A DNA stretch of 31,298 nt from a virus: the IMG/VR virus record IMGVR_UViG_3300035698_021353, positions 1-31,298 of that record, one strand, 5' to 3'. How positions within the stretch are numbered: position 1 is the stretch's first letter; every line of letters starts with the position of its first letter. The notes beneath the pieces were generated by a model. That model ran no database searches and was not told where the DNA came from. It was given only the letters and a program-made list of their open reading frames with translations. The position numbers were made by a program, and so were the translations under genes. This document shows positions 5,764 to 31,298 of the stretch, one piece after another.

Positions 5764-5790
5764 AGCTGCGTCTAGTAATGGTTAATTAAA

Positions 5791-10119: not shown

Positions 10120-10124
10120 TTCGA

Positions 10125-10130
10125 CCTCCT
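10125..10130 (-). promoter_or_regulatory. Strong Shine-Dalgarno site of the epimerase gene
   Basis: The coding strand reads AGGAGG, then five bases, then ATG at 10119. It shows that canonical anti-SD pairing is used in this host, in contrast with many other genes in the window that lack it. Confidence 0.85.
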
Positions 10131-10141
10131 TAAAATATTAT

Positions 10142-11485: not shown

Positions 11486-11828
11486 ATATTTTCTTCAAGT
11501 TATCTATTTGATCGGTTACATCCGGCTCCGTTGAATCAATAATCCAAGTGACTTTAACCGACTTCACAATTTCCTGCCTTGCCTGCTTAATCATCTTTTC
11601 TTTTGTGAGGGGCGTTTGGTTAAGTATGATAAGTAACTTCCCTTCCCAATACGTGTTAAAAAGCTCCTGCAAATACACCTCCTGAGAGTTGTCATCTGTG
11701 ATAATCAGCATTGCTTCGTGTTGAGTATCTGCCATCCTCCCGACTAACTCAGTGACGTTTTTACAGTCTTTGGTAAGCAGGATTATCCCAAGTTTGTATC
11801 TGCGGGCCGCGAAATTGTGCCTTCTCAT
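11463..11828 (-). CDS. Small protein of the glycosylation cassette, possible GT-A fragment (121 aa)
   Basis: I do not recognise a full family. The start YKLGIILLTKDCKNVTELV followed by LIITDDNSQEVYLQELF resembles the first strands and nucleotide-binding DDxS loop of GT2-type GT-A folds. A later VTWIIDSTEPD could mimic the second acidic strand. At 121 aa it is far too short for a complete transferase, so it may be a partner or remnant. It starts on the stop of the GT4 gene (TAATG) and overlaps the next transferase by 23 bp. Confidence 0.68.
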   Translation of the reverse strand: MRRHNFAARRYKLGIILLTKDCKNVTELVGRMADTQHEAMLIITDDNSQEVYLQELFNTYWEGKLLIILNQTPLTKEKMIKQARQEIVKSVKVTWIIDSTEPDVTDQIDNLKKIYANDSDS

Positions 11829-13171
11829 TAAAACTTTTTGTCTAAATAATCAACAAGCTTTTTAGCAGTGATCTGCGCGTCGTATTTGTCTCTCATGACT
11901 TTAGCAGCCTTTTTACCCTTGGCTTTAGCTTTGTCAGGCTTTTCATAAATCTCTCTCATAATTGATCGTAAATGGTCCTCACTTGCCTCACCCCACATCT
12001 GCCCTTCTCTCCAAAGTTCAGGAGGATAGGAACCGAAAGAGTTTTCTTTAATCGGTTGTAAAGTGTAGTCGATAGGGTATGCGTAGCTTGGTTTCATAAA
12101 TTCAGATGGAGCTGACCAGTTTGTGCAAACGGTAGGTAGCCCCACACACATCGCTTCCATTGCAGGTAGGCCCATCCCTTCGCCCCTTGTAGGGAATACA
12201 AAGCAATCAATCCTTGCAAAGAAGTCAGTAAGCAATTGCTCAGGGGAGAAACTATCTCTTACCAAAATAATACGGTCGTCTTTTTTCCATTCTTCGGTGC
12301 TCATAAACCACATCATCGAGATGCCGCCAATAGCAAGGGTTTTAATATATAACTCAACGTTTGGGTATTTGTCCCGTGGGAATTCTTTTTGAAAAGCCTT
12401 AACAAGGATATCTGTACCCTTGCGGTATGTCAGCGTGCCCATAGTGCCAAAGCGGAAAATCTCTTTGTTTTCATCCTCGCTACGGTCACGTTCAAGTACT
12501 GGAAACATCTCAGGATTTAATCCGAGCGGAACGACCTCAACATCTTTTACTACTCCGCTATCCAAAAACGCCTGCCTTTGGTGCTCAGAGGGAACGACTA
12601 AACGCTCACAATAATTGTTAATTCTATCAGCCCAACTCTGAGGTACTAGGTTAGATTCAAGCATTGAGTAGGATACTAATCTTTCAGCGATGCGGTCGTT
12701 GATACAATGTACGGGGAAGAATTTCACATAAAAACCATCCATCGCTTCTTTCATTTCGCCAGTTTCCTTATCGACCCCTTTGTCTAAAATGGCTTGTAAC
12801 TCAGGGTTGATATGTCCTAATTGGGTGCCCTTCCATTTAGAGTGCACGAAGTAGAGATCAGCATATTTATTAACACCCTCAGCCATCATCATCGATGCTT
12901 TCCCATAGCCGTTGTTGTAGCCAATGGGGCCGTCCCAAATGATCTTGCGTCCATCCCTCCAGCTCGCTGGATTAAAAGACAATGTGGCGGATGTGGAACC
13001 GCCGGGCAATTCTTGCTTAAAGATCTCATATTCACCGCCAAGCTGCGTTAACTCAAGCGCATCTTTATCGGGCATCTCACAAAAGCCTTTGTTAAACTTA
13101 TAGTAATGGGGCTTCTTGCCGGAATTAATGGTAACGGTGATCCCAGGGTATCGTTTTGAGCGTACTAACAT
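11828..13171 (-). CDS. GT4 glycosyltransferase with phage-type N-terminal domain (447 aa)
   Basis: Residues about 60-440 are a GT-B glycosyltransferase: LVVPSEHQRQAFLDSG, VEVVPLGLNPEMF, FGTMGTLTYRKGTDILVKAF (phosphate-contacting R/K near 250), and RGEGMGLPAMEAM with E331 and E339 as the E-x7-E motif. The first 55 residues (RSKRYPGITVTINSGKK, YYKFNKGFCEMPDKDALELT) look like the small 'filled by a sequence element' domain found as free-standing proteins in phage head modules, so this may be a fusion that docks the enzyme on a virion protein; that is inference. It is the first cassette gene, with its ATG directly after CTAGACGCAG and no Shine-Dalgarno site. Confidence 0.88.
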   Translation of the reverse strand: MLVRSKRYPGITVTINSGKKPHYYKFNKGFCEMPDKDALELTQLGGEYEIFKQELPGGSTSATLSFNPASWRDGRKIIWDGPIGYNNGYGKASMMMAEGVNKYADLYFVHSKWKGTQLGHINPELQAILDKGVDKETGEMKEAMDGFYVKFFPVHCINDRIAERLVSYSMLESNLVPQSWADRINNYCERLVVPSEHQRQAFLDSGVVKDVEVVPLGLNPEMFPVLERDRSEDENKEIFRFGTMGTLTYRKGTDILVKAFQKEFPRDKYPNVELYIKTLAIGGISMMWFMSTEEWKKDDRIILVRDSFSPEQLLTDFFARIDCFVFPTRGEGMGLPAMEAMCVGLPTVCTNWSAPSEFMKPSYAYPIDYTLQPIKENSFGSYPPELWREGQMWGEASEDHLRSIMREIYEKPDKAKAKGKKAAKVMRDKYDAQITAKKLVDYLDKKF

Positions 13172-13172
13172 C

Positions 13173-13181
13173 TGCGTCTAG
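13173..13181 (-). promoter_or_regulatory. CTAGACGCAG leader motif before the glycosyltransferase start
   Basis: On the coding strand CTAGACGCAG abuts ATG at 13171. Similar copies are at 5767-5775 (before the chaperone ATG) and, inverted, at 13225-13233. The last part, CGCAGATG, also matches the leader of the early genes (aCCGCAGATG). Function unknown. Confidence 0.45.
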
Positions 13182-16032: not shown

Positions 16033-17709
16033 TTAAATGGGAACTTCTTCAAACATTGTTTTGTTAATTATGACTAGATCCTGGATTGGATCTTTTCGAT
16101 AAACCACCGCGTCCCACCCATTTTCCTTTAGCCAGTCAGCGATATACTGACCACGCCTGTTACTCCAAGCCTGCAAGTTAGTGTTGGGGCCAGCCGCGAT
16201 TAAGGCGTCAGCGAGGATCTGAGAGGGGATATCTTGACTGTCGATTATTTTGGCATTAACTTTAGGCCTAAAACCTGTAATCAATGAGCCATATCTTTTG
16301 GCGTCACTTAGTGACGTGGTTGTATATAAACCTCTAGCGCCTGCGGATATTCCAATGTTGTTGCCAGCCCCTCTATAAAAGATTTGCTCTGGTATGGGAT
16401 TAATTGGTTTACCCAAGAATCCTGTTGTAGGAGTGACGGTGGAGACTCTCTGAGCTGCTTGTGCAATCTCCCCAGTTAGAGGTTTATTTAGAAAGCCCGT
16501 CGCGGTGGTTGTGGTTGTAGCAGCAGCCTTTTGCCCGGCGAACTCAAGAAGCCCCTTAGCATTTTTGATGGAAGATCTTATAATACCTTGTACTTCTTTG
16601 TCAGCGATCGTCGGTAGAATTTCCTGGTACTTTGATACAAATTTCTGTAGCTCCGTTAACTGATCTTGGCCAGTAAGATGCGAAGTTATAAACTCTAACT
16701 CCTTGTTTGCTTGGTATTGAGAGCCCATGACTTTTTGCCCCACGATTTCTGTTTTGCCAGGGACCTGGGCACGCTTGGCGGCCAGTAAGTCAGCAAGTGA
16801 TTGCTTAGGAGGCGCAACCTCACTAAGTAACTGCCTGACCTGAATGGATTGATCGCGCGGTATAAAGTTCTCAAAGATCTGGATTAGCGGGGAGTCATTG
16901 GGCCTCAACCACTCTTCAGGGATAACGGATACAATCACGCACCTGCAAAACGGATGGATAGGGACAATATTACCTTCTTCGATACTGAATTTCTTACTGC
17001 CCAAAGTCTCACCCTCTGTTGCTCCAGCAATGCGCCTACATTCAGGGCAAGCATCAGCCGCTAAAGATATTTGATACTGTTGAACACCGATGTCACTCAT
17101 GTACTGGCGGGCGCCTTCATTAAGCGCCCAATTAGTTTCAGTCCTGGCAATCTTGCGCGCGCGCGTGCGGTCCATCTCTAACCCTTTTTGGAGCCGGGCG
17201 GCGATTTGATCAAAGGACTCACCCTTACGGATACCGTCCTCGATGATTTGGTTTACTTTCTTGAGTGTGTTTTCTTCAAGGACTTTAGCAAGGTATGCTT
17301 TTCTTCCCCGTAAAAGGTCGATGTATTTTACTCCGTTGCCGATATCGAAGTTGATCCCATAAAGCTGGCTAACCTTACTAGGGTCAGTCCCTTCGCTTTG
17401 GAGTTTGTCTTTGACATAGTCGTACTGGTAGTTTACAGAAATATCCAGCATTGGGGTAAGCAGGTTTTCATCAAAATCAAAATCCTGCTGGCCAAAATCT
17501 TGGGGTGTTGAATAAGCTTTGGCTAACCTTCCGCTTTGCATATCAAAGGCAGCGCGGGCAATACGGAGCACCTTATCGTTAACGACATCTAGTTTCTTTT
17601 GCGAGTAACGCTCGAATAAAATCTCAACCTTGTCAGCTTGCCTCTTGATGGGTTCAGGATATTCTTCTGCCTCGTGCGATCTATGAAGTTGTGCTAGTAG
17701 TTGTTCCAT
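16033..17709 (-). CDS. MuF-type minor head protein with ADP-ribosyltransferase-like C-terminus (558 aa)
   Basis: Residues about 145-265 are the phage MuF domain: RTRARKIARTETNWALNEGA, then CPEC (C221, C224) and HPFCRC (H252, C255, C257), a likely metal site. Residues 300-435 are a Gln/Ala-rich linker with a GFLNKP/GFLGKP repeat. Residues about 440-558 look like an ADP-ribosyltransferase fold: YRGAG (R446), GLYTTTSLSDAKRYG (Y462), and the end GWDAVVYRKDPIQDLVIINK, where the usual catalytic Glu position seems to be Q543 or D544. MuF proteins with C-terminal toxin or effector domains are a known class. The gene overlaps the portal gene by 16 bp. Confidence 0.85.
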   Translation of the reverse strand: MEQLLAQLHRSHEAEEYPEPIKRQADKVEILFERYSQKKLDVVNDKVLRIARAAFDMQSGRLAKAYSTPQDFGQQDFDFDENLLTPMLDISVNYQYDYVKDKLQSEGTDPSKVSQLYGINFDIGNGVKYIDLLRGRKAYLAKVLEENTLKKVNQIIEDGIRKGESFDQIAARLQKGLEMDRTRARKIARTETNWALNEGARQYMSDIGVQQYQISLAADACPECRRIAGATEGETLGSKKFSIEEGNIVPIHPFCRCVIVSVIPEEWLRPNDSPLIQIFENFIPRDQSIQVRQLLSEVAPPKQSLADLLAAKRAQVPGKTEIVGQKVMGSQYQANKELEFITSHLTGQDQLTELQKFVSKYQEILPTIADKEVQGIIRSSIKNAKGLLEFAGQKAAATTTTTATGFLNKPLTGEIAQAAQRVSTVTPTTGFLGKPINPIPEQIFYRGAGNNIGISAGARGLYTTTSLSDAKRYGSLITGFRPKVNAKIIDSQDIPSQILADALIAAGPNTNLQAWSNRRGQYIADWLKENGWDAVVYRKDPIQDLVIINKTMFEEVPI

Positions 17710-20878: not shown

Positions 20879-20903
20879 AATTTAAAAAGACTTGTTTAAT
20901 ATA

Positions 20904-21104
20904 TCAAGATTCTACCACTTCCACGATCTCACCGATATCAAGATCTTTTGCTCTGTAGTGAATGAACAGCTTGACCGCGGATTGTAGGGCGGCGATTCTC
21001 AATTGCGAAATATTTGGGATGCCGTGGGCATCGAGTTCGAATAAAACTTCACCTCGACCGGCCGCTGGATCCTTGTGGATAACCTGAGCTTTGAATCTAC
21101 GCAT
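20904..21104 (-). CDS. Small conserved-looking protein before terS (66 aa)
   Basis: The function is not recognised. The protein (MRRFKAQVIHKDPAAGRGEV, LDIGEIVEVVES) is a small alpha/beta domain with an acidic tail. I placed the start at the ATG at 21104; a TTG at 21134 would add ten residues. It is the first gene of the packaging operon, 25 nt before terS, and its 5' part holds one of the three DnaA boxes (21074-21082). Confidence 0.6.
   Translation of the reverse strand: MRRFKAQVIHKDPAAGRGEVLFELDAHGIPNISQLRIAALQSAVKLFIHYRAKDLDIGEIVEVVES
21074..21082 (-). promoter_or_regulatory. DnaA box on the minus strand (TGTGGATAA on plus)
   Basis: Perfect reverse-complement match. It lies inside the small gene 20904-21104, so it is partly constrained by coding, but fits the cluster. 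Confidence 0.6.
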
Positions 21105-21146
21105 TGGATAAGGCGTAACAAGATAAGTGCCCAAAGCTCGGTGGAG

Positions 21147-21155
21147 TTATCCACA
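21147..21155 (+). promoter_or_regulatory. DnaA box (TTATCCACA)
   Basis: Perfect match to the strong DnaA box consensus. It is the middle one of three within about 160 bp. Confidence 0.75.
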
Positions 21156-21160
21156 TCGTA

Positions 21161-21166
21161 ATTATA
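21161..21166 (-). promoter_or_regulatory. Candidate late promoter -10 (TATAAT)
   Basis: The minus strand reads a perfect TATAAT about 57 nt before the ATG at 21104, with no matching -35 17 bp upstream. It could be an activator-dependent late promoter. It sits between two DnaA boxes. Confidence 0.3.
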
Positions 21167-21223
21167 AGAACATTCCTGCTGATCATCGTGCGGGTGGCTA
21201 CATCTTGTAACAATGATCGGTAG

Positions 21224-21232
21224 TTATCCACA
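21224..21232 (+). promoter_or_regulatory. DnaA box (TTATCCACA) next to AT-rich tract
   Basis: Perfect consensus, 18 bp before the (TTAGT)n tract, the relation expected between a DnaA box and the unwinding region. Confidence 0.75.
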
Positions 21233-21250
21233 TTTTTTTCCTTCATGCTA

Positions 21251-21288
21251 TTAGTTTAGTTTAGTTTAGTTTAGTTTAGTTTAGTTTA
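21251..21288. repeat. Tandem repeat (TTAGT)7 plus TTA
   Basis: Seven perfect 5-bp units in AT-rich DNA between a DnaA box and the iteron-like repeat. It may be an origin unwinding tract, and it is also a slippage-prone site whose copy number may vary in the population. Confidence 0.9.
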
Positions 21289-21297
21289 TATACCTAT

Positions 21298-21345
21298 AAG
21301 ATTATCACTTGCATACAAGATTACCATTTGCATGCATTTGCATGG
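21298..21345. repeat. Iteron-like 19-bp direct repeats (2.5 copies)
   Basis: AAGATTATCACTTGCATAC (21298-21316) is followed without gap by AAGATTACCATTTGCATGC (21317-21335), 16 of 19 identical, then by ATTTGCATGG. TTGCAT appears three times. Head-to-tail repeats of this size next to DnaA boxes recall iterons that bind a phage or plasmid initiator. Confidence 0.75.
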
Positions 21346-21346
21346 G

Positions 21347-21634
21347 TTAGTTACCCCTTAGTAAACTTGTCCTTGGTCTTTTAAAGTCATTCCAACGGGC
21401 TTTTGCGGACTCTTGGCGCTTTTTTCTTATGTCTTCGTACTTTGCATCATTAGCGCGGAGCCTTTGTAGTATAAACGCGAAAATCGGCTTGATCTGGGGA
21501 TCCCGAGTTTTCGGATCGTAGGCGGGGCCGTCGTATGCCAGGATCATGTCAAAGACGATTAAACGCTTTTTATCTGGCAACACATCAAATAACGACTTCC
21601 ATTCTTTATAAATTATGATTCCGGGGCTACTCAT
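21347..21634 (-). CDS. DUF6291-like replication-associated protein (95 aa)
   Basis: The segment YKEWKSLFDVLPDKKRLIVF followed by AYDGPAYDPKTRDPQIKPIF, then the basic helix KKRQESAKARWNDFKRP, resembles the N-terminal domain of DUF6291-type proteins, which in other phages sits in replication modules. Here it is short and lacks any ATPase or primase part. Its stop is next to the iteron-like repeat, and it overlaps the HTH gene by 4 bp (ATGA). It is a candidate origin-binding protein by location only. Confidence 0.65.
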   Translation of the reverse strand: MSSPGIIIYKEWKSLFDVLPDKKRLIVFDMILAYDGPAYDPKTRDPQIKPIFAFILQRLRANDAKYEDIRKKRQESAKARWNDFKRPRTSLLRGN

Positions 21635-21915
21635 TGTCTTCCACCCCCTGTGATTTGTATCTTGGGTTTAGATCCACGGTTGCCTTTCCCTTTTAGCGGG
21701 ATTCCGGCTAAGCGCACATAACGAGTTAGTGTGGTGTTCGACACACCGAGGAGCTCACACACACTTTTATTAGTTTTGGTCGAATAGAGGTATTCGAGCC
21801 GGGGGCGGGGGATTCTCTTCATCTGCGAATGACTAAAGTTAGTTAGTGATAATGTCAATTTATCACATCCAGGTAGGTTGTCAAATGGGAATTTCCCCGC
21901 GTTAATATGAGGCAT
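21631..21915 (-). CDS. Small helix-turn-helix protein (94 aa)
   Basis: Residues about 40-75 (RLEYLYSTKTNKSVCELLGV, then SNTTLTRYVRLAGIPLKGKG) read as a resolvase- or sigma-region-4-like helix-turn-helix followed by a basic arm (KGNRGSKPK). It is the first minus-strand gene of the divergent control region, coupled to the DUF6291-like gene, and is the best candidate for a phage transcription regulator in a genome without a recognisable repressor. DNA target unknown. Confidence 0.65.
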   Translation of the reverse strand: MPHINAGKFPFDNLPGCDKLTLSLTNFSHSQMKRIPRPRLEYLYSTKTNKSVCELLGVSNTTLTRYVRLAGIPLKGKGNRGSKPKIQITGGGRQ

Positions 21916-21928
21916 GGTAAGATATATG

Positions 21929-21985
21929 AGGCGCTCGGTGATGATTTATAGCTTAGCGGCAAAACCATCTGCGGACCGGGCGCCT
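21929..21985. repeat. 11-bp inverted repeat in the divergent control region
   Basis: AGGCGCTCGGT (21929-21939) and ACCGGGCGCCT (21975-21985) are complementary at 10 of 11 positions with 35 nt between them. The enclosed stretch includes CCGCAGATG on the minus strand (21974-21966). This GC-rich dyad lies in the leader of the minus-strand HTH gene, just upstream of early promoter P1. It may be an operator or RNA hairpin. Confidence 0.6.
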
Positions 21986-21994
21986 AAAATTCCC

Positions 21995-22023
21995 TTGACA
22001 ATCTTTTTACGTTGCAGTATAGT
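21995..22023 (+). promoter_or_regulatory. Early promoter P1 (TTGACA-17-TATAGT)
   Basis: -35 at 21995-22000, 17-bp spacer, -10 at 22018-22023. 29 nt later the aCCGCAGATG motif gives the ATG of the zinc-ribbon gene at 22053. It likely also drives recT. Confidence 0.85.
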
Positions 22024-22052
22024 AATAGTAGATTAAGATTTTATCACCGCAG

Positions 22053-22223
22053 ATGATGGAATGTTCAAATGGACATGATATGACGCTAGAATCCACCACT
22101 TATGATGAATATGAGCCTACAATAGGCCATAAACAAACCGAGGGCCCTGCCCGCTGGCTTTGCCCTCTTTGCGGCGAAGAATGCGAGCAAACCACCTACG
22201 ATTTCGATTTTTGCACTGACTGA
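22053..22223 (+). CDS. Zinc-ribbon miniprotein (56 aa)
   Basis: A short gene starting MMECSNGHDMTLE at the ATG of the CCGCAGATG motif and ending TTYDFDFCTD. It has C-S-N-G-H near the start and W-L-C-P-L-C-G-E-E-C in the middle, with a further Cys before the end, consistent with one or two zinc-binding knuckles. It is the first gene of the early operon, behind P1. It may be a nucleic-acid- or host-protein-binding takeover factor; no specific family is recognised. Confidence 0.72.
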   Translation: MMECSNGHDMTLESTTYDEYEPTIGHKQTEGPARWLCPLCGEECEQTTYDFDFCTD

Positions 22224-22253
22224 ACCATGGCCAAGACATCGATAAAGAGTTAC

Positions 22254-22273
22254 TTAATTTAATTTAATTTAAT
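22254..22273. repeat. Tandem repeat (TTAAT)4 in the recT leader
   Basis: Four perfect 5-bp units ending 10 nt before the recT ATG at 22284. It lies in the 60-bp gap after the zinc-ribbon gene, has no Shine-Dalgarno site, and may keep the leader unstructured. Confidence 0.85.
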
Positions 22274-22283
22274 CTACACCGTA

Positions 22284-23147
22284 ATGAGAAACGAAAATAC
22301 AAAAGCACTCGTAGCTGAAGTAGAAAAAACTTTGGTGCTGATGCGCGACACTTTGAATATAATTTTGCCACCCACGTTGAGCGCTGAGAAGTTTTCGCGG
22401 ATAACAATCCAGGCCATCAAAACTAACCCTGACCTCGTTAACTATGACCGGAGCTCACTCTATGGGGCGATCGTCAAAGCCGCTCAGCTAGGCTTAGAAC
22501 TTAACACACCACTAGGGCATGCATACTTGGTCCCCTACAAACGCAAAGTTACTTTCCAAATAGGATACAAAGGCCTACTTGAACTCGCCTACAGGTCAGG
22601 AGAGATCGCGGCTTTCGACGCCGAAATTGTATACAAAAATGATGAGTTTGTTTACGAACGCGGGACTAATCCTAAGCTTGGGCACAAACCTTCCTTTGAC
22701 GAAGAACGCGGCCCCATACGCGGCGCTTATGCTGTAGCCCATCTGCTACGCACAGACTTAAAACCGTTTGTGGTTATGTCGAAAGCTGATATTGATAAGA
22801 TCGCGGCAAGGAGCGCGTCTGCTTCTGCGAGCCATTCACCCTGGAAATCTGACTATGAAATGATGGCTAAGAAAACTGTACTTAAGCGGTTGACCAAGTA
22901 TCTTCCCGCAGCCATTGCGCTTGCAAGAGGTGTTTATACCGATGATCGCGCTGAAGCAGGATATGTCACAACAGTAAAAGCCTCAGACCTAGAGAATACA
23001 AGGGTTATAGATGCCGAGGATTTGGACGCTGTCATGAGTGAAGAACAGGTAAACGAGGAGTTATCTCAAGCAAGAGAAGAATCTAATGGCCAGAAACTCG
23101 CAGATTCCGCTAAACTAAAGATGTTAGCTGCTAAAGGAGGGCAGTAG
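22284..23147 (+). CDS. recT: RecT-family single-strand annealing protein (287 aa)
   Basis: RecT anneals complementary single strands and promotes recombination with a partner exonuclease. The family blocks are visible: ITIQAIKTNPDLVNYDRSSL, GAIVKAAQLGLELNTPLGHA, VPYKRKVTFQIGYKGLLEL, and SPWKSDYEMMAKKTVLKRL. Length is normal, and the C-terminal 60 residues are acidic and likely disordered. The next gene is the YqaJ-type exonuclease, its usual partner, but with its own promoter just after the recT stop. The ATG has no Shine-Dalgarno site. Confidence 0.96.
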   Translation: MRNENTKALVAEVEKTLVLMRDTLNIILPPTLSAEKFSRITIQAIKTNPDLVNYDRSSLYGAIVKAAQLGLELNTPLGHAYLVPYKRKVTFQIGYKGLLELAYRSGEIAAFDAEIVYKNDEFVYERGTNPKLGHKPSFDEERGPIRGAYAVAHLLRTDLKPFVVMSKADIDKIAARSASASASHSPWKSDYEMMAKKTVLKRLTKYLPAAIALARGVYTDDRAEAGYVTTVKASDLENTRVIDAEDLDAVMSEEQVNEELSQAREESNGQKLADSAKLKMLAAKGGQ

Positions 23148-23163
23148 AATTGTGATCAATAAC

Positions 23164-23192
23164 TTGACATTGCCTTGCTGTTCTGTTACATT
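23164..23192 (+). promoter_or_regulatory. Early promoter P2 (TTGACA-17-TACATT)
   Basis: -35 at 23164-23169, 17-bp spacer, -10 at 23187-23192, then 27 nt to the CCGCAGATG motif (ATG 23220). It lies 16 nt after the recT stop and drives the exonuclease gene. Confidence 0.82.
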
Positions 23193-23219
23193 AACGTAAT
23201 TAGTATTATTTAACCGCAG

Positions 23220-23243
23220 ATGAAAATAGATGAAACATATTGA
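23220..23243 (+). CDS. Possible 7-codon leader peptide overlapping the exonuclease start
   Basis: The ATG of the CCGCAGATG motif here opens MKIDETY then TGA, ending 14 nt inside the exonuclease gene in another frame. The other leader motifs put the ATG at the start of a real gene, so this one may be a coupling leader, or the exonuclease start may simply use the second ATG. Confidence 0.35.
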   Translation: MKIDETY

Positions 23244-24186
23244 TATAACTAAACATTCCCAAAAAGAATTTTTAAAACTTCGCGAAGGTAGTATTGGCAG
23301 TAGCGACGTCGGAGTGATAATGGGATTAAGCGAGTATAAAACTCACTACCAATTGTGGGCTGAAATGTCAGGGATTTACGAGGTCCAAGATTTTGAAAAT
23401 AAGCATGTTTTTTTCGGTAGGTACTTTGAAGAAATGATCGGTGCTTTATACCAATTTTGGGATAAGGATTTTGATACTATGGTCCAAAATTATAAAGAGA
23501 ATAAAGTAGTGTCGGGAATAGACACTAGACGGTGGCTATTCAGATCTGAAGAGCACAAATACCTTCACGCTTCCCCTGATTTCGTAGTTCTGCAACATCC
23601 TAAATACGATGGCAAGGGGATACTAGAAGTAAAAACTATCCTTGGTTGGGTTGCCCAAAAATACGAAGCGGGTTTGCCCCCACAATACTACGCACAGCTC
23701 CAGTGGCAGCTCTATATCTCAGGATATAAGTGGGGAGATTTTGTGGTGCTTAAAGATGGCAGGTTCATGGAAGTTTATCATCTCGATCGTGATGAAGAAT
23801 TTATCGCAGACATGGTCAAACAGGTTCACGACTTTCACAAAAAGGTGGTCCTCACCAAGGAGGCTAGAAAGCTTGGTACTGATTTTTCACAATTTGAACC
23901 CGAAGTAGATGGCACTGAAGCTTTTCGGGATTACCTCAAAGCTCGATACAAAGCTAAAGAAGAAATAACCGAAGGTGATGAAGAAGACCAAGCTACAGCG
24001 GAAGATTTGGTCGGAGTAAAGGACCAACTCAAAGCCATTAAGGCAAAAGAGCTGTTTTACTCAAATAAGCTCAAAGCAAAACTCAAGACCGCTACCGTCA
24101 TGAGTTTTTCAGACGAAGGGAATATCACTTGGAGACCTGATAAGAAAGGCACGCGAATACTCAGAATTAATTTAAAATATTTATAA
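23230..24186 (+). CDS. YqaJ-type exonuclease / viral recombinase (318 aa)
   Basis: The lambda-exonuclease fold signature is complete: GSIGSSDVGVIMG (20-32), E67 in FGRYFEEMIG, D117 in HASPDFVV, E133-x-K135 in GILEVKT, and PPQYYAQLQWQLYISG (150-165). It degrades one strand of dsDNA ends to load RecT. The C-terminus (about 225-318) is a charged helical extension. It has its own promoter P2 and sits immediately after recT. Confidence 0.93.
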   Translation: MKHIDITKHSQKEFLKLREGSIGSSDVGVIMGLSEYKTHYQLWAEMSGIYEVQDFENKHVFFGRYFEEMIGALYQFWDKDFDTMVQNYKENKVVSGIDTRRWLFRSEEHKYLHASPDFVVLQHPKYDGKGILEVKTILGWVAQKYEAGLPPQYYAQLQWQLYISGYKWGDFVVLKDGRFMEVYHLDRDEEFIADMVKQVHDFHKKVVLTKEARKLGTDFSQFEPEVDGTEAFRDYLKARYKAKEEITEGDEEDQATAEDLVGVKDQLKAIKAKELFYSNKLKAKLKTATVMSFSDEGNITWRPDKKGTRILRINLKYL

Positions 24187-24193
24187 AAATAAT

Positions 24194-24385
24194 ATGGACC
24201 TTCCGATTAGAGATGCAATCATTAATGGCGTGAAGTGCCGGCATGTCGCCTCCGACAAAGAGCTACACAACCCCTTGAGGCAAAGGATTTATAGAAAGAA
24301 AATTAAGGCGTTTTACTTGGAGCGTGGTTGGTACATTCCACTCTCTGAGCTTGAGAAAATTAAAATAATTAAGCGTAAAAAATAA
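24194..24385 (+). CDS. Small basic protein (63 aa)
   Basis: The function is not recognised. It is Lys/Arg-rich, with AFYLERGWYIPLSELEKI resembling the recognition part of a small winged-helix or MerR/excisionase-like domain, and a very basic tail (KIIKRKK). DNA binding is plausible but unproven. It starts 7 nt after the exonuclease stop, and its stop overlaps the next ATG (TAATG). Confidence 0.65.
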   Translation: MDLPIRDAIINGVKCRHVASDKELHNPLRQRIYRKKIKAFYLERGWYIPLSELEKIKIIKRKK

Positions 24386-24621
24386 TGGAATACCCAACAA
24401 CTAATCCAAGTGAGATTGAGGATGAACTTAACTATCTAAGCCTCAAGAGCATCGAAGCTTTTAGACTAAGAAGACAAAGCTTACTTGACATAATAGGATA
24501 TGAACTTACTATCATGGCCCTGGATAACCAAAAAGCTTTGCTAAATATGATACACCAAGGGCAGCCGATTAAGACTGAGCTAAATAATTTAACGGGGTTC
24601 TTATCGGAGGTATTGCCATGA
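24385..24621 (+). CDS. Small helical protein (78 aa)
   Basis: Unknown. Mostly alpha-helical by composition (LKSIEAFRLRRQSLLDIIGY) with no signal peptide or motif. Coupled to both neighbours: TAATG at the start, ATGA at the end. Confidence 0.65.
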   Translation: MEYPTTNPSEIEDELNYLSLKSIEAFRLRRQSLLDIIGYELTIMALDNQKALLNMIHQGQPIKTELNNLTGFLSEVLP

Positions 24622-24827
24622 GAAAAGACCGAGTACCACCGATCTACGAAACTACAGGGCATTTTATAGATAAGCAAATATTTGGCGGGGAGAGCCATTT
24701 TGCTACTTTACACCTCAAGCCTGAATCAATGGACGGGGTGTTAGATAATACGCCTGGTATGCATACCTACATTATGATCGCTGGCAAAGTAGTACTGCTG
24801 CCAGGTGTGTTAAGAAGTAATAATTAA
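24618..24827 (+). CDS. Small unknown protein (69 aa)
   Basis: Unknown. It has a good ribosome site (GGAGG 7 nt before the ATG) and overlaps the preceding stop by 4 bp, so it is very likely translated. The sequence (MRKDRVPPIYETTGHFIDKQ) suggests a small beta-rich fold. Confidence 0.7.
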   Translation: MRKDRVPPIYETTGHFIDKQIFGGESHFATLHLKPESMDGVLDNTPGMHTYIMIAGKVVLLPGVLRSNN

Positions 24828-24845
24828 ATTAATCTGAAAACCTAC

Positions 24846-25127
24846 GTGAACCACTCACAAAAAGAATGGGATGAATTGATCACAAACTATATTGCGAACA
24901 GCAACGGCCCCCAAGTAAATAACCCCAGGCACGAAGAGGAGGTGGCAAGGTTAATGGATAATTTACGCAGGCCGTTAATGATAAGTTACTTCGAAAATCG
25001 TAGAAAAATTGAGCCCGACTTTAGTATAGATCAAATCGACAATCAGAGTTTTGAAGTCCTGCTTGAATATTTCTGCCAGGGTGTTATATACGGGGTCAAT
25101 ACATACAAGGAAGTTCAAAAAGCTTGA
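24846..25127 (+). CDS. Small unknown protein with GTG start (93 aa)
   Basis: Unknown. The only fitting start is GTG at 24846. The protein is helical and acidic (KEWDELITNYIANSNGPQ, EEEVARLMDNLRRPL). Its stop codon lies within the -35 of promoter P3, so the two units are tightly packed. Confidence 0.6.
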   Translation: MNHSQKEWDELITNYIANSNGPQVNNPRHEEEVARLMDNLRRPLMISYFENRRKIEPDFSIDQIDNQSFEVLLEYFCQGVIYGVNTYKEVQKA

Positions 25128-25152
25128 CAGTAGATTACAGTGCTGTTATAGT
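25124..25152 (+). promoter_or_regulatory. Early promoter P3 (TTGACA-17-TATAGT)
   Basis: -35 at 25124-25129, 17-bp spacer, -10 at 25147-25152, then 25 nt to the CCGCAGATG motif whose ATG (25178) starts the membrane-anchored hydrolase gene. Confidence 0.87.
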
Positions 25153-25177
25153 ATAAATATAACATCAATAACCGCAG

Positions 25178-25861
25178 ATGATGAGAAAACTAACGTACAC
25201 ACAACTAAGAAACAAGGCTCGCCAGACTGTCTGGCAGTCAGTTCCACTTTATAAAAAGGTTGCATACGTATCCCTTGTACTTGCATCATTCTGGATTTTA
25301 AATGGAATGATAACTCTTGTCCATGCCGGTTTGCAGTTAGATGCTTATGAAGTTAATAAACAAGAGGCGCCCGTGCAAACGATTTCGCCCTTGGAGTCCC
25401 AATCGGCGGTCGTAAGAGAGTTTGATCTTCAAACTCTCCCGACTACTGGCCGGGATTGCGAGGGTGAAATTAATTCTTTTCTACAGAGTTATGGTAGTGC
25501 CTGGGCTGGTATGGCTGCCTCTTTTGTTAACGCAGCAACCAAAGTAGAATCACAAACTAATCTAGGTGGTGATGCGTGTGAGGCTGCCAAGCTTGCAGTA
25601 GCTATAGGCTGTGTCGAGTCATCATGCGGTAAAAACCATATGAGCTTCAACGCATGGGGGCTGCGGGATTATACCGGCAAGAATAAATGGGAGAAATTCG
25701 ATAATTGGGAGGACGCGATTTACACGTATGTATACAGGACTTACAGACCATATCTCAGTTCTGGGTTTGATGGATTCCTTGACTCAAGACTAAGTATATA
25801 CTGCCAATCGAGTTGCTCGGGCTATGCTCAGCTGTTAACTAATTTTAGGGAAAGAATGTGA
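25178..25861 (+). CDS. Membrane-anchored cell-wall hydrolase-like protein (227 aa)
   Basis: A basic N-terminus is followed by one transmembrane segment (about 27-49, VAYVSLVLASFWILNGMITL), so the rest should lie outside the membrane. Residues about 135-225 read as a lysozyme/glucosaminidase-like domain: AIGCVESSCGKN with E147 as the likely catalytic residue, MSFNAWGLRDYTG, and FDNWEDAIYTYVYRTYRPYL. Cysteines 93, 134, 145 and 150 could form disulfides. It is made early from promoter P3, not with the late endolysin. Possible roles are local wall opening for DNA entry, superinfection exclusion or wall remodelling. Confidence 0.78.
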   Translation: MMRKLTYTQLRNKARQTVWQSVPLYKKVAYVSLVLASFWILNGMITLVHAGLQLDAYEVNKQEAPVQTISPLESQSAVVREFDLQTLPTTGRDCEGEINSFLQSYGSAWAGMAASFVNAATKVESQTNLGGDACEAAKLAVAIGCVESSCGKNHMSFNAWGLRDYTGKNKWEKFDNWEDAIYTYVYRTYRPYLSSGFDGFLDSRLSIYCQSSCSGYAQLLTNFRERM

Positions 25862-25928
25862 TGGTAAGAGGATAACCTATACTTGCTGTTTGAATGACCT
25901 ACTATTTATTTATTTATTACTTTTACAC

Positions 25929-26303
25929 ATGGCAACAGATGACAAGACCGATACTAACACTGCACTAACTGATAACATGGTGCTGAATGAAGGTGATCAC
26001 TCCGAAATCACAGCAGGCGATGACTCCAAAATCACGGCAGGTTATGACTCCGAAATCACAGCAGGCGATCACTCCGAAATCACGGCAGGCTACCGCTCCA
26101 ATATCACAGCAGGCGATCGCTCCGAAATCACGGCAGGTTATGACTCCGAAATCACGGTAAGAGGAAAAACCTGCACAGCAACAGCAGGGGATAACTCATT
26201 GTTAACTCTTCGTTACGATGGCAAACCGGAAATATTTAAAATTAACAACGAAAAGATTAAAATACAGGACGGTAAGCTAATTTCTAGAACACGACCAATA
26301 TGA
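25929..26303 (+). CDS. Ice-nucleation-like octapeptide repeat protein (124 aa)
   Basis: After a disordered, Thr/Asp-rich start (MATDDKTDTNTALTDN) come seven uninterrupted 8-residue units of the form G-[DY]-x-S-x-I-T-A (for example GDHSEITAGYRSNITA; DNA 25992-26159). A further half-matching unit (ATAGDNS) and a short C-terminal domain ending KIQDGKLISRTRPI follow. The octad resembles half of the 16-residue repeat of bacterial ice nucleation proteins, which stack as a beta-helix with exposed Thr ladders. I chose the ATG over a TTG at 25890 that would add a hydrophobic 13-residue extension. Its stop overlaps the next start (ATGA). Confidence 0.75.
   Translation: MATDDKTDTNTALTDNMVLNEGDHSEITAGDDSKITAGYDSEITAGDHSEITAGYRSNITAGDRSEITAGYDSEITVRGKTCTATAGDNSLLTLRYDGKPEIFKINNEKIKIQDGKLISRTRPI
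25992..26159. repeat. Seven in-frame 24-bp tandem repeats (octapeptide array)
   Basis: Each unit is GGN-[GT]AN-xxx-TCC-xAA-ATC-ACN-GCN. Third positions differ between units, so selection on the peptide rather than recent slippage keeps the pattern. Confidence 0.85.
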
Positions 26304-26773
26304 TTATATCTGTCAACCGATTAAAGAAAACAGGGGGGATGAAGGCATACCATAAATGGCTCAGGGGCACTCCTCAAGATTCTTTGGAAGATAATTGGCT
26401 TCAATGGCTGATTGGTAGGGCGGTTGAAAATGATGAGGTTATCAAGATTACTCCGTACTTCGTAATCGTCAAGGCATTAACTCATGTGAATCCTGAGTAC
26501 GCGCCTGATTGCAGTTGTCACACGTCCACAGCAAAGAGCCACATCGTTGCATTCACGACTGAGCCTGTCAGCTACTGGACAGATGGATCGCCACACGCTA
26601 AGGTCGCATTCTCAAAGTTATGTGATGCCTTGAAAGGTTGGAGGATGTATATCAGTGAAGACCCTGATAAATCAATCACCAGATTCCACGCGCACTTTGT
26701 AAGTATGGGCGGTACTTATAAGGATGTTCAAGACCGTTTGAATAAATCTTATTTAATAGAGAAGAATTTCTAA
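26300..26773 (+). CDS. Unknown early protein with Cys/His cluster (157 aa)
   Basis: Not recognised. A central APDCSCHTSTAKSH segment gives C-x-C-H plus a further His, a possible metal site. Trp-rich elsewhere (DNWLQWLIGRAVEN, SYWTDGSPH, DALKGWRMYI). Soluble, no signal peptide. Translationally coupled to the octapeptide-repeat gene by ATGA. Confidence 0.7.
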   Translation: MIISVNRLKKTGGMKAYHKWLRGTPQDSLEDNWLQWLIGRAVENDEVIKITPYFVIVKALTHVNPEYAPDCSCHTSTAKSHIVAFTTEPVSYWTDGSPHAKVAFSKLCDALKGWRMYISEDPDKSITRFHAHFVSMGGTYKDVQDRLNKSYLIEKNF

Positions 26774-26798
26774 GAGTGTGACCACAGATACAAGAGTA

Positions 26799-26858
26799 AT
26801 GCTGAAACTCATAACAGATGGTCGTTCTTGCATTTCATATCTAGACTACATACAATAA
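26799..26858 (+). CDS. Possible microprotein (19 aa)
   Basis: The sequence MLKLITDGRSCISYLDYIQ ends 5 nt before the next gene's ATG (26864). It may be a leader that couples translation, or chance. No ribosome site is clear. Confidence 0.25.
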   Translation: MLKLITDGRSCISYLDYIQ

Positions 26859-26863
26859 ACAAA

Positions 26864-27133
26864 ATGGAAAAAAACGGAGACTTCAGGACAATAAGAATTG
26901 GTTGGGATGACGAAGAAAAACTAAAATTGGTTGCTGAAGTCGATGTCCTTCAGCGGTCTATCTATCGCACAAACAATCGTCGCCTTCAAGAAGAACTCAG
27001 GGCCGCGAGAAATCTAATTCTGACCAAACTTTGCGGAGAGAACTGGCTCACTTTCACAAGAAAAATATCTTACTTCCGCAGTGATTTACTTTTAATTGTG
27101 AAATATCACCCTAATGAAGCACCTCAAATATAA
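26864..27133 (+). CDS. Unknown charged early protein (89 aa)
   Basis: Not recognised. The start at the ATG at 26864 (AAACAAA leader) is preferred over an upstream in-frame TTG at 26828. It has a strand-like N-terminus (GDFRTIRIGWDDEEKLKLVAE), a charged helix (RTNNRRLQEELRAARNLIL) and a strand-like end. The last 20 bp overlap the next gene. Confidence 0.65.
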   Translation: MEKNGDFRTIRIGWDDEEKLKLVAEVDVLQRSIYRTNNRRLQEELRAARNLILTKLCGENWLTFTRKISYFRSDLLLIVKYHPNEAPQI

Positions 27134-27410
27134 AGACTTCACCACTAGAGAGGCAGATCTCGACCGCCAAATAACAACGGTACATTTTACTTATAGCCGT
27201 GGTGGCTTCGAGATCGTCATTGCGCCGTCAATGGAAGGTTTTGATGTTAGATTGTACAAACTAAAACACCCAACATATCTTGAAACGCACTCCACTGGAT
27301 TCCAAAAAATGATTGCGCCTGCTTATGCATACATGGCAGCGCTAAACATTGCGCAGCAGCTTTATTCAAAACATATAGCACCAAAAACTATTACACTACT
27401 TGACGACTGA
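27114..27410 (+). CDS. Unknown early protein (98 aa)
   Basis: Not recognised. An alpha/beta pattern: GGFEIVIAPSMEGFDVRLYK, then an Ala/Tyr-rich helix (APAYAYMAALNIAQQLYS). It overlaps the preceding gene by 20 bp, and its 3' end overlaps the -35 of promoter P4. Confidence 0.65.
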   Translation: MKHLKYKDFTTREADLDRQITTVHFTYSRGGFEIVIAPSMEGFDVRLYKLKHPTYLETHSTGFQKMIAPAYAYMAALNIAQQLYSKHIAPKTITLLDD

Positions 27411-27428
27411 GTTAATAAGTGTTACAGT
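27400..27428 (+). promoter_or_regulatory. Early promoter P4 (TTGACG-17-TACAGT)
   Basis: -35 at 27400-27405, 17-bp spacer, -10 at 27423-27428, then 29 nt to the CCGCAGATG motif with ATG at 27458. Confidence 0.8.
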
Positions 27429-27457
27429 ACAGGAATAATTTAAGCATCTAACCGCAG

Positions 27458-27673
27458 ATGAAGACAAGGATACCACTTCAAGTTACATTATTTGCAGAAA
27501 TAGCAGATGGCGCTATTCAAAAGGAGGCACATGGCTGGTCCGTAACCGTCGATAATGGCTCTCACATCACACTGTTTAAATTCTCCGAATCCGGAATCTA
27601 TGCCGGTGTATCAGTCGAGCTATTCCAAATTGATCTAAGGCAACCTAAATTAACTGAGGAGATACAATCTTGA
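27458..27673 (+). CDS. Unknown early protein (71 aa)
   Basis: Not recognised. A small beta-rich protein (MKTRIPLQVTLFAEIADGAI) beginning at the ATG of the CCGCAGATG motif. Its stop TGA overlaps the TTG start of the next gene. Confidence 0.68.
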   Translation: MKTRIPLQVTLFAEIADGAIQKEAHGWSVTVDNGSHITLFKFSESGIYAGVSVELFQIDLRQPKLTEEIQS

Positions 27674-27858
27674 CACATGAAGAATACATAATGGTAGGTG
27701 CGATGACGCAATACGGGGGCAGTTTTGCAGTAGCCCTTGCTGAATGTATCCGGAAAGCCGACCCGATCAATAGGGCAAAGCTTAAGCTTGCGTTTCCTGA
27801 GCTCTGGGAAAAATATACTGAAATGGGACTGGAGGATATCGATGCAAACAAAATCTAG
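27670..27858 (+). CDS. Small conserved phage protein, TTG start (62 aa)
   Basis: GAGGAG ends 8 nt before a TTG at 27670, supporting that start over the ATG at 27691. The core GGSFAVALAECIRKADPINR followed by AKLKLAFPELWEKYTEMG matches a small helical protein I have seen in many phage genomes, always without an assigned function. It overlaps the next gene by 17 bp. Confidence 0.72.
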   Translation: MTHEEYIMVGAMTQYGGSFAVALAECIRKADPINRAKLKLAFPELWEKYTEMGLEDIDANKI

Positions 27859-28087
27859 CGAAATGAATATTGCCGTTGTAATGGGCTTCATTGTTGGAGT
27901 TATAGTGGCGATGTTATGCTTTACTGGGTTTACACAAAACCAAGCGGTCAACTCAGAGGGTCGGGATAGATTCTGGCAGCACATTACAGATGCATGTAGA
28001 AAGCAAGGGAAAGTTCCTGTTGTCGTCGATGAAGTGCAGCCCAATCGTTGGGTTAGATTGCAAGTAGGTTGTGATGATGAATCCTAA
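27842..28087 (+). CDS. Small exported or membrane protein (81 aa)
   Basis: ATG at 27842 has GGAGG 6 nt upstream. One transmembrane segment (about 9-29, IAVVMGFIVGVIVAMLCFTG), then a polar domain with two Cys (C62, C77) and VPVVVDEVQPNRWVRLQVGC. Topology suggests an inner-membrane-anchored outer domain. Possible roles are superinfection exclusion or lysis control; neither is shown. Confidence 0.72.
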   Translation: MQTKSSEMNIAVVMGFIVGVIVAMLCFTGFTQNQAVNSEGRDRFWQHITDACRKQGKVPVVVDEVQPNRWVRLQVGCDDES

Positions 28088-28196
28088 TCGCATGATGGTC
28101 ATGGTTATGCTAGCCTTTTCCCCAGCTGTTATAGTCGTAGGTTTAGTTCCAATTGCGCTTTTATTTAAACTTATTTACCAATTTTGCCAACCATGA
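28074..28196 (+). CDS. Tiny membrane protein (40 aa)
   Basis: MMNPNRMMVMVMLAF, then a hydrophobic run (SPAVIVVGLVPIALLFKLIY) and a short tail. It overlaps the preceding gene by 14 bp and the next by 4 bp (ATGA), so position supports translation. Single-TM; role unknown. Confidence 0.6.
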   Translation: MMNPNRMMVMVMLAFSPAVIVVGLVPIALLFKLIYQFCQP

Positions 28197-28573
28197 GAAA
28201 ACTCAAAACTGTAGTTAAAACAAAAATCAGGAGATCGCCACTGATGAGTTTAAGCAAGGGTGAATTAGTAGACAGATTGATTTTAGTCACAAACGATTTT
28301 AATGCACTAGGTGAGCATTTAAAAGAACTGACCAAAGATAAGGATGCGCTTAAAAAGAAACGTAAGGCTTTTATTGACATGTATTCTGATCACATTAATT
28401 CAGAAGCATTGGCCGTGGATAGGCTCAATGCAAGATTGAGTAACGTTCATACCCAATTATTCCAGCTTAAACGCAAGCTGAATAAGAACATCTTTGAGCG
28501 TATTATGTTTGCTATCAGCTATAACCCTGCACTTAGCAATAGTGCAAAAAGCGGCATAACAATACAGAAATAG
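28193..28573 (+). CDS. Basic coiled-coil protein (126 aa)
   Basis: Unknown. The N-terminus is strongly basic (MRKLKTVVKTKIRRSPL). Residues about 25-65 and 75-110 are heptad-like helices (HLKELTKDKDALKKKRKAFI; AVDRLNARLSNVHTQLFQLK). Last gene of the plus-strand early block. The ATG at 28193 is preferred to a TTG at 28184 because it gives ATGA coupling. Confidence 0.68.
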   Translation: MRKLKTVVKTKIRRSPLMSLSKGELVDRLILVTNDFNALGEHLKELTKDKDALKKKRKAFIDMYSDHINSEALAVDRLNARLSNVHTQLFQLKRKLNKNIFERIMFAISYNPALSNSAKSGITIQK

Positions 28574-28589
28574 CTCCCCAGGTTGGTGT

Positions 28590-28616
28590 GAGGCTTGTTA
28601 TAATAAGCCCAGCCTC
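28590..28616 (+). terminator. Candidate hairpin at the end of the early block
   Basis: GAGGCT and AGCCTC flank a shorter GGCTT/AAGCC stem (28592-28609). There is no T-run, so termination is weakly supported. It lies 16 nt after the last early stop, between convergent blocks. Confidence 0.4.
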
Positions 28617-28667
28617 GATAGTGCGGAATATTAATAGTCCAGCGCTAAGAAGTAAAGTACTCCAACG

Positions 28668-28684
28668 CATTAGCAGTGCTAATG
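28668..28684. repeat. 17-bp palindrome in the convergent gap
   Basis: CATTAGCA-G-TGCTAATG is perfectly symmetric. It lies in the 166-bp non-coding gap between early and late ends (28574-28739), which also has ACTGT-TTATTG-ACAGT at 28717-28732. Possible operator, resolution or packaging-related site. Confidence 0.5.
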
Positions 28685-28739
28685 GTGTCCAGCACAGTTC
28701 TGTGATGGATCTGAAGACTGTTTATTGACAGTAACTTAA

Positions 28740-29066
28740 TTATACACCAAATCTTCTTTGAAGTAATTTGAGTAGTATCACAGCAACAACAAGCGCGCCA
28801 TTGATGAGAAATGCGGAGATACTTCCAATAGCGACGCCGACCTCCACTGGCAACTGCCAGGCATAAGCAGCAATAACAGCAATCCCTGCGCCTGCACTGT
28901 TGGCCGCTGCAGAATATGGAAGCCACGATTTGAAGTCACTGGCGATACTTTTTTGATCTCCGTACCGCGTTCCTTGGGTGGTTGAAACACCATCAAAGCT
29001 GGTATCCCCAGCACCATAGTCTGGGGCCGAAAGGACATCTGGATTCTGTAACTCTATGTCGGACAT
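28740..29066 (-). CDS. Holin-like membrane protein (108 aa)
   Basis: Two hydrophobic segments (about 55-75, AGAGIAVIAAYAWQLPVEV; about 76-100, IGSISAFLINGALVVAVILL) are separated by a short turn, with a soluble acidic N-terminus (MSDIELQNPD) and a basic end (LLQRRFGV). This is the layout of a class II holin, which forms the membrane hole that releases a signal-less endolysin. It directly follows the M23 gene. The ATG at 29066 is preferred over an upstream ORF start at 29198 that would overlap the endolysin by 113 bp. Confidence 0.7.
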   Translation of the reverse strand: MSDIELQNPDVLSAPDYGAGDTSFDGVSTTQGTRYGDQKSIASDFKSWLPYSAAANSAGAGIAVIAAYAWQLPVEVGVAIGSISAFLINGALVVAVILLKLLQRRFGV

Positions 29067-30117: not shown

Positions 30118-31275
30118 TCAGTTGTGTCCTAATACTATCAGCTCAGCAGCCCCTAAGTTGCCGCTTGAGATGCTGAAAACTACCGAGCTAATCTGTGCTG
30201 CGGTATTATTCCAGGCCCCGATACACATTCTGCCGCCAGCTCCGGCAGATGTTCCCCCACCGATATTGCCCTGCACTCCCTTTTGTCTGTTGGATATATT
30301 CACTACATTAAAATCACCAATTAGATTTTGTGCTCCGGAATCGGTAAGTGCTAAAAGATTAGCACTTGATGCCGATGTTGCTGGGGAAAAAGACCCCCCA
30401 TAAGGGTTGACAAAAGCATAAGCATAATTATTACCTGAGTCGCCGTTGAACCTCATTGATAGGGTAGCGCCGGTTGATGGGTTAAATAAGAACATAATCT
30501 TTAGGTATTTCCGGGCTGGTAAACTACTCACTGTGATAGAGGTCTGGGCACTATTAGAAAGTCTACCTAATTCTTCCCACCACACTTGCCTACCATTAAT
30601 TGTGAACCCACTAGCGTTTGTATCTCCTAAGTTAAGGATGCCACTACTATCTATATTACCTAGATTACGCGCTACTCCTGCAGAATCGTAAACTTGAAAA
30701 TCTTTGGCCTTCATTTGCATTATTACTCTTGCATCGGTGATGTTTGCGTTCACAATCGAACTCACGCTAGTGCCTACTAGAATGGTCGCCAGAAGAATAC
30801 TATCTGCAGGGGTTACTTTGGCAACAGGTGAGGCCGCGGGGACACCTTGGCAATTAGCATTAGCAGCGGAAGACTCGATTACGAATACATTGTTAGCATC
30901 GTCATTAGGGGTCGTGCTTGTTTTCCTTGCGATGACTAGATCGATCCTAGGATTACTCCCGTTAGCAGCCGCAACCCCAACGTTTTCAATCGCGCTGCTC
31001 TTAAACCTCCAGAATCTAGTTTGGGCAATAGAACTATTAGTGTAGTTGCTGTTTAAAACCATACCTGCTCCAGGAGCTACGTCAACAGATAGATTTGCGC
31101 CGGCGGCTCGCTGCGAAACTGCCAGATCGGCGGGGAGCCTGATTGATGCGGCCACTAAAATATCCTCATATACGGCCATCATATCCTCTTCTTTCATACC
31201 TGCGGTGACAAAGACGCCAGGAGAGGTCTCTGTTATCCCGCCCATGCCATTTATTGCTGTTCCGTGTATTGCCAT
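30118..31275 (-). CDS. Tail fibre / receptor-binding protein (385 aa)
   Basis: The N-terminal 110 residues resemble the shaft and upper part of siphovirus fibres. The block NPRIDLVIARKTSTTPNDDA, then ADSILLATILVG, is common in baseplate-upper proteins. The C-terminal part (about 230-385) is Gly/Ser/Ala-rich beta structure (WEELGRLSNSAQTSITVSS, GGGTSAGAGGRMCIGAWN) fitting a galactose-binding-like or jelly-roll receptor domain. It is the last tail gene of the circle, followed by the lysis cassette. Host receptor unknown. The gene crosses the contig join (see 1-104). Confidence 0.72.
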   Translation of the reverse strand: MAIHGTAINGMGGITETSPGVFVTAGMKEEDMMAVYEDILVAASIRLPADLAVSQRAAGANLSVDVAPGAGMVLNSNYTNSSIAQTRFWRFKSSAIENVGVAAANGSNPRIDLVIARKTSTTPNDDANNVFVIESSAANANCQGVPAASPVAKVTPADSILLATILVGTSVSSIVNANITDARVIMQMKAKDFQVYDSAGVARNLGNIDSSGILNLGDTNASGFTINGRQVWWEELGRLSNSAQTSITVSSLPARKYLKIMFLFNPSTGATLSMRFNGDSGNNYAYAFVNPYGGSFSPATSASSANLLALTDSGAQNLIGDFNVVNISNRQKGVQGNIGGGTSAGAGGRMCIGAWNNTAAQISSVVFSISSGNLGAAELIVLGHN

Positions 31276-31298
31276 CTTGTTACTAGTTTAATATTAAA
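31172..31298. repeat. Exact terminal direct repeat, right copy (circle overlap)
   Basis: This is the right-hand copy of 1-127. Removing one copy gives a circle of 31,171 bp in which the tail-fibre gene is intact and follows the gene ending at 123. Confidence 0.93.

Follow-up and report, generated by a model that had tools for sequence, protein, structure and literature searches.

A short sequence tag repeated against start codons behind the promoters of a 31-kb virus genome

Why should a virus repeat the same few bases directly against the start codons of several of its genes? The question arises in the window, by which we mean the whole stretch of DNA analysed here: 31,298 nucleotides, positions 1 to 31,298 of IMG/VR virus record IMGVR_UViG_3300035698_021353. 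An earlier note on this DNA described a unit of promoter, leader and aCCGCAGATG that recurs at 22.0, 23.2, 25.1 and 27.4 kb. It proposed that the conserved bases are a translation signal or a regulator's binding site for the whole early set. All four units are found at those positions. We also find copies that the note overlooked, and the tag (C)CGCAG stands against a start codon behind five promoters in both directions, so one regulator, or the ribosome, could control several genes. The observation is confirmed and extended here, while its interpretation survives only in part.

The four rightward units are all on the + strand. Their -35 boxes begin at 21995, 23164, 25124 and 27400, and the spacer to the -10 box is exactly 17 bp in each, so the boxes and spacing of these sigma-70-type promoters are as described in 4/4 units. 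The motif ACCGCAGATG follows at 22046, 23213, 25171 and 27451. The 11-mer ACCGCAGATGA is common to all four, with A at +4 in 4/4. The ATG lies 29, 27, 25 and 29 nt beyond the last base of the -10 box. The 25-29 nt quoted in the note are right as the distance to the ATG but not to the first C of CCGCAG, which is 19-23 nt away.

Three of these units end on the start of a long open reading frame (ORF), as claimed. Unit 1 (21995..22055, +) is TTGACA-17-TATAGT, a leader and CACCGCAGATGATG, and its ATG (22053) starts a CxxC protein of 56 amino acids (aa), the first in the recT operon. Unit 3 (25124..25180, +) is TTGACA-17-TATAGT, a leader and AACCGCAGATGATG, and its ATG (25178) starts a 227-aa protein with a hydrophobic stretch at the N-terminus. 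Unit 4 (27400..27460, +) is TTGACG-17-TACAGT, a leader and AACCGCAGATGAAG, and its ATG (27458) starts a 71-aa protein. The exception is unit 2 (23164..23222, +), which is TTGACA-17-TACATT, a leader and AACCGCAGATGAAA. The -10 boxes of units 2 to 4 are TGT-extended. The ATG of unit 2 (23220) opens merely a 7-codon ORF, MKIDETY and a stop (23220-23243), that overlaps the start of the YqaJ/RecE-like exonuclease (23230..24186, +) lying 3' of the unit. The exonuclease ATG is 10 nt past the motif ATG and out of frame with it. The start region, ATGAAAATAG ATGAAACATA, resembles an imperfect 10-bp direct duplication of the start, and we infer that such a duplication would have displaced the original start.

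Three further copies were overlooked. A fifth unit (21820..21884, -) points the other way out of the single divergent control region (21.82-22.05 kb) from which both arms of the genome originate. Its promoter, TTGACA-16-TAAATT, is at 21884-21857 (-) and is followed by a leader and TCGCAGATGAAG, with TCGCAGATGA at 21828-21819 (-). Its ATG (21822) starts a 63-aa HTH_17-like protein (21631..21822, -; E 0.00096, below the Pfam cut-off), the first gene of the leftward operon. A longer ORF would begin at 21915, but that position is upstream of the unit 5 promoter, which makes 21822 the more plausible choice. The next copy, ACGCAGATG at 13177-13169 (-), is at the start of a late glycosyltransferase gene (ATG 13171), where TAGACGCAG followed by ATG occupies 13169..13180 (-). 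We found no convincing sigma-70 promoter at this start, and two terminator-like hairpins stand right upstream of it. The last is a perfect inverted CCGCAGATG (21966..21974, -) between the two divergent promoters, with no assigned gene start. It sits just inside the right arm of an inverted repeat, GGCGCTCGGT/ACCGGGCGCC, with 10-bp arms (21931..21983, strand not assigned). The repeat is possibly an operator or a structured RNA, though its fold is not significant (z -0.96 / -1.7). Altogether the window has seven copies of CGCAGATG, and 7/7 fall within the 7.6% of it that is non-coding.

A weaker, related late-gene leader box is the TAGACGCAG box at 5766..5774 (-), 2 nt ahead of a late-gene ATG (5763). 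Another box, TAGACG(CAG), is over-represented ahead of late genes (5774, 6314, 13180 and upstream at 16033-17709, all on the - strand), and TAGAC precedes 7 genes where 0.9 are expected. This box may be the tag in a late form.

The repetition is well beyond chance. No 10-mer is repeated more than 3 times in 300 dinucleotide shuffles of the early region, counting 10-mers with at least 4 G/C and all four letters present. With promoters matched at 9/12 or better, a promoter followed by CGCAGATG occurs as 5 distinct units here versus 1 single event in 60 shuffled windows. CGCAG is exactly at -5 from the ATG in 5/42 genes here, compared with 0/1069 ORFs of other viral contigs and 2/1350 in bacterial loci (Fisher p 2e-8); the 21822 start was partly picked for its motif, and 4/42 starts remain without it.

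Is the tag part of the promoter, or does it belong to the start codon? The gap from motif to ATG is 0 at five annotated starts (22053, 25178, 27458, 21822 and 13171). CCGCAG follows the -10 box after 23, 21, 19, 23 and 28 nt in units 1-5. Because the first distance is fixed and the second varies over 19-28 nt, an RNA-level start-site element is favoured over a promoter part. The glycosyltransferase gene makes the same point: it is a late gene behind terminator-like hairpins, has no convincing early-type promoter and is tagged all the same, so the tag can be detached from the promoter. The note placed the conserved bases beside the start codon, and they are indeed locked to the ATG and not to the promoter. 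It was also right that the tagged starts have no Shine-Dalgarno (SD) site. There is no SD-like pairing at them, and duplex energies with the anti-SD (CCUCC) are about 0. Operon-internal starts at 9193, 21347, 24618 and 27670 have strong SDs (-8 to -14 kcal/mol), which suggests that a canonical anti-SD is at work. SD-led initiation is thus available, yet it is unused at the tagged first cistrons. The "whole early set" is too broad, however. Most early genes are operon-internal and lack the tag, and one late gene has it. Within the early set the tag is limited to first genes behind a promoter.

We argue that CCGCAG/AUGA is a start-associated RNA element through which one trans-acting factor controls ribosome entry on the tagged mRNAs together, and we give this about an even chance (roughly 0.5). 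The host RNA polymerase would make transcripts from the mostly extended -10 promoters, with predicted leaders of ~20-28 nt. On each transcript made from a promoter, the tag would abut the start codon of the first cistron and take the place of an SD site. A single factor would read CCGCAG/AUGA on these first cistrons and set their translation jointly. The most likely reader would be a virus-encoded RNA-binding protein, either a repressor that competes with the 30S subunit or an activator that recruits it, like RegA of phage T4. The ribosome itself would be the second choice.

Several points weigh against this. No long ORF begins at the motif ATG of unit 2, and no gene is assigned to the inverted copy at 21966, which means the ATG may be just one part of a recognition sequence. 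The start at 21822 was preferred over 21915, with the unit 5 promoter between them. Scans of most early proteins against Pfam, and of part of them against PHROGs, turned up no RegA-like or other RNA-binding protein, with no search aimed at RegA. A leader hairpin that exposes CCGC in its loop is suggestive in units 1, 3 and 4, but hairpins presenting the motif are not significant overall (p 0.08). Finally, we found no relative that carries the tag, hence there is no comparative test.

The search for relatives, which the note had suggested, was made in IMG/VR and in a phage collection. IMG/VR scans with single RecT, TerL, portal and exonuclease proteins and with a TerL profile gave distant homologues or none, and none of the homologues has synteny with this genome; near-identical records may be omitted from these searches. 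A DNA search of the phage collection gave no match. Motif scans of IMG/VR gave 3 matches with a strict pattern, 11 with a looser one and 24 with a relaxed one. All are single promoter-motif matches that lie inside ORFs, before short ORFs or beside an ordinary SD. One contig, L179, was rejected as a carrier of the unit as it has a better start with an SD further downstream. No relative with the same leader was found in IMG/VR. We also scanned 713 genomes of three groups: 380 from the phylum of a Wolfebacteria metagenome-assembled genome, 185 from the class of a Massilia genome and 148 from the phylum of an Allomuricauda genome. The pattern matched 1 time versus 2 for the reversed control pattern, which is the chance level. 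We reject a host-wide leader for the three groups sampled. In the collections searched the tag seems confined to this virus or to close kin.

The main rival is that CCGCAGATGA is an asymmetric DNA operator for a transcription regulator of the virus. The site would be at ~+13 to +22 of each promoter, where the bound regulator would block clearance or elongation in the manner of the oriented stoperators of mycobacteriophage L5. The reader would most likely be the 63-aa HTH protein (21631-21822). This protein is a candidate regulator: the divergent control region contains its gene, and the leader of that gene is tagged with the motif. Five copies accompany promoters, two are away from any long-ORF start, and the perfect inverted copy sits between divergent promoters in an inverted repeat with 10-bp arms. 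All of this speaks for an operator. On the other hand, the spacing from the -10 box differs by as much as 9 nt among the units, with the ATG at a constant distance in five cases. No convincing promoter accompanies the late copy at 13171, and the HTH match is under the curated cut-off. We consider the operator possible, and RNA-level regulation more likely than DNA-level regulation. That inverted repeat allows another scenario, in which a hairpin RNA from the + strand (21931-21983) carries CATCTGCGG and represses the tagged starts in trans. The c4 RNA of P1 and P7 is an antisense RNA that represses in trans. The hairpin would contain a perfect 9-nt complement of all tagged starts, but 9 bp is a short complement. 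There is also no promoter-like site for such an RNA on the + strand, the fold is no better than shuffles, and Rfam gives no match at the gathering level and no plausible one at permissive E-values. Antisense control is very improbable.

The ribosome could also read the tag directly. CCGCAG, extended as AACCGCAG, would then be a non-SD ribosome-binding signal that base-pairs with helix 45 of 16S rRNA along its 3' strand (CUGCGGUU), just upstream of the anti-SD; alternatively, the tag could mimic the 5' strand of helix 45. The tagged starts lack an SD, and AACCGCAG and CUGCGGUU have perfect 8-bp complementarity within the 3'-terminal 24 nt of E. coli 16S rRNA, which may not be the host's. Units 2 and 4 extend the pairing to 12 continuous pairs. 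With CCGCAG held fixed, the upstream extension beats shuffles (p 0.003), but only with the E. coli-type tail, 1/3 tested. The two other rRNA types show no continuous extension beyond chance, and the pairing was found after the fact. It would also require helix 45, a stable and conserved hairpin, to open. A tag read by ribosomes should be in use in other genomes too, and none among those sampled used it. We regard direct recognition by the ribosome as doubtful. The fuller version, in which helix 45 gives the first cistrons a private 30S route and the internal cistrons use normal SDs, is more doubtful still. The last alternative is that the units are recently duplicated promoter-leader cassettes, or leaders of a host type, with no regulatory role of their own. 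There is a precedent for the cassettes in a TerL-related contig, L045, where a near-identical promoter-leader cassette occurs three times. In the window, however, the boxes alone are conserved and the spacers and leaders have diverged, so the motif appears to be kept by selection and not by recent copying. No sampled host group uses the tag. We find this alternative improbable. The start-associated RNA element read by one trans-acting factor is our preferred explanation.

The rest of the genome gives the setting. A 127-bp exact direct terminal repeat (1-127 and 31172-31298 of the window) makes it probable that the genome is complete and closed, at ~31,171 bp. The leftward arm carries the structural genes TerL, portal, head and tail. 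In the rightward arm, which starts at 22.0 kb, recT and the exonuclease stand among small unknown genes. The RecT-family annealing protein (22284..23147, +) is the second gene of unit 1, and its leader is AT-rich with neither motif nor SD. Many SD-less genes have AT-rich TAATTAA leaders upstream. Pentanucleotide repeats, (TTTAG)n at 21251-21290 and (TTTAA)n at 22252-22272, are close to the divergent control region. The gene at 25929-26303 (+) has 24-bp tandem repeats that encode 8-residue GDxSEITA-type repeats, weakly like ice-nucleation repeats. Between the tail and head genes, 8184-13171 (-) encodes the glycosyltransferase and two sugar-nucleotide enzymes, one GDP-mannose 4,6-dehydratase (GMD)-like and a second epimerase-like. 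Among the head genes is a 551-aa protein (14362-16017, -) with a 2H phosphoesterase / 2',5' RNA ligase-like domain (phrog_755 E 7e-16, TIGR02258 E 6e-5), an unusual site for an RNA enzyme. TerL is closest to Flavobacteriia phages (~41%), and the GMD matches are mixed.

It is worth comparing the tag with systems that are already known. The cassettes of L045 (12930-13060, 14160-14290 and 17740-17870) serve three genes, each with an SD-less leader ending at the ATG (...ACAACAAAACCACACAGACAATG). They differ in having a Bacteroidota-type TATATTTG promoter, and there the whole cassette is conserved, which suggests duplication. The stoperators of L5 (cluster A), as cited in PMC3203893, are likewise many short asymmetric sites oriented with transcription. 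They act in transcription, are not locked to an ATG and have another sequence. T4 RegA binds ~30 early mRNAs at the AUG or immediately 5' of it, and its A+U-rich sites have no clear shared sequence (PMC3014915). One virus protein governing many early mRNAs at the AUG is the model proposed here, but in our case the sequence is fixed and contains C and G.

The nearest known case is that of the start-associated sequences (SAS and ESAS) of the cluster K mycobacteriophages, whose architecture is the same. SAS are short asymmetric repeats beside start codons, for the most part those of non-structural genes. Almost every copy is in the sense orientation, several genomes have one opposite copy without a gene, and the host has none. 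Our seven copies of CGCAGATG are distributed in much the same way, with 7/7 non-coding, five exactly at starts and one inverted in the control region. ESAS are a subset preceded by a sigma-70-like (SigA-like) promoter with a -35/-10 spacing of 17-18 bp, and our five promoter-motif units also have a sigma-70-like promoter upstream. The sequences disagree, however. The SAS is 13 bp, GGGATAGGAGCCC, lies 3-9 bp from the start and includes the AGGAG SD core. The tag is (A)CCGCAG/ATGA, directly abuts the ATG in an unrelated virus, has no SD core, and no GGGATAGGAGCCC-like core is found even with up to 2 mismatches allowed. ESAS also have 17-bp imperfect inverted repeats around the promoter, and none was listed on either side of the promoters here when 20900-28800 was searched for repeats. 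Based on these differences in sequence, SD core and inverted repeats, the tag is not a member of SAS/ESAS. SAS and ESAS have been a puzzle since 2011 within one group of mycobacteriophages, and their function was still untested in 2025. Since SAS overlap the SD site, a regulatory role is hard to separate from ordinary ribosome binding. We have a comparable element with no SD, abutting the AUG, in an unrelated virus whose closed genome is 31 kb. If it acts on translation this would be a clean system for finding what reads such tags, and it would suggest that coordinated start-codon control arose more than once in phages.

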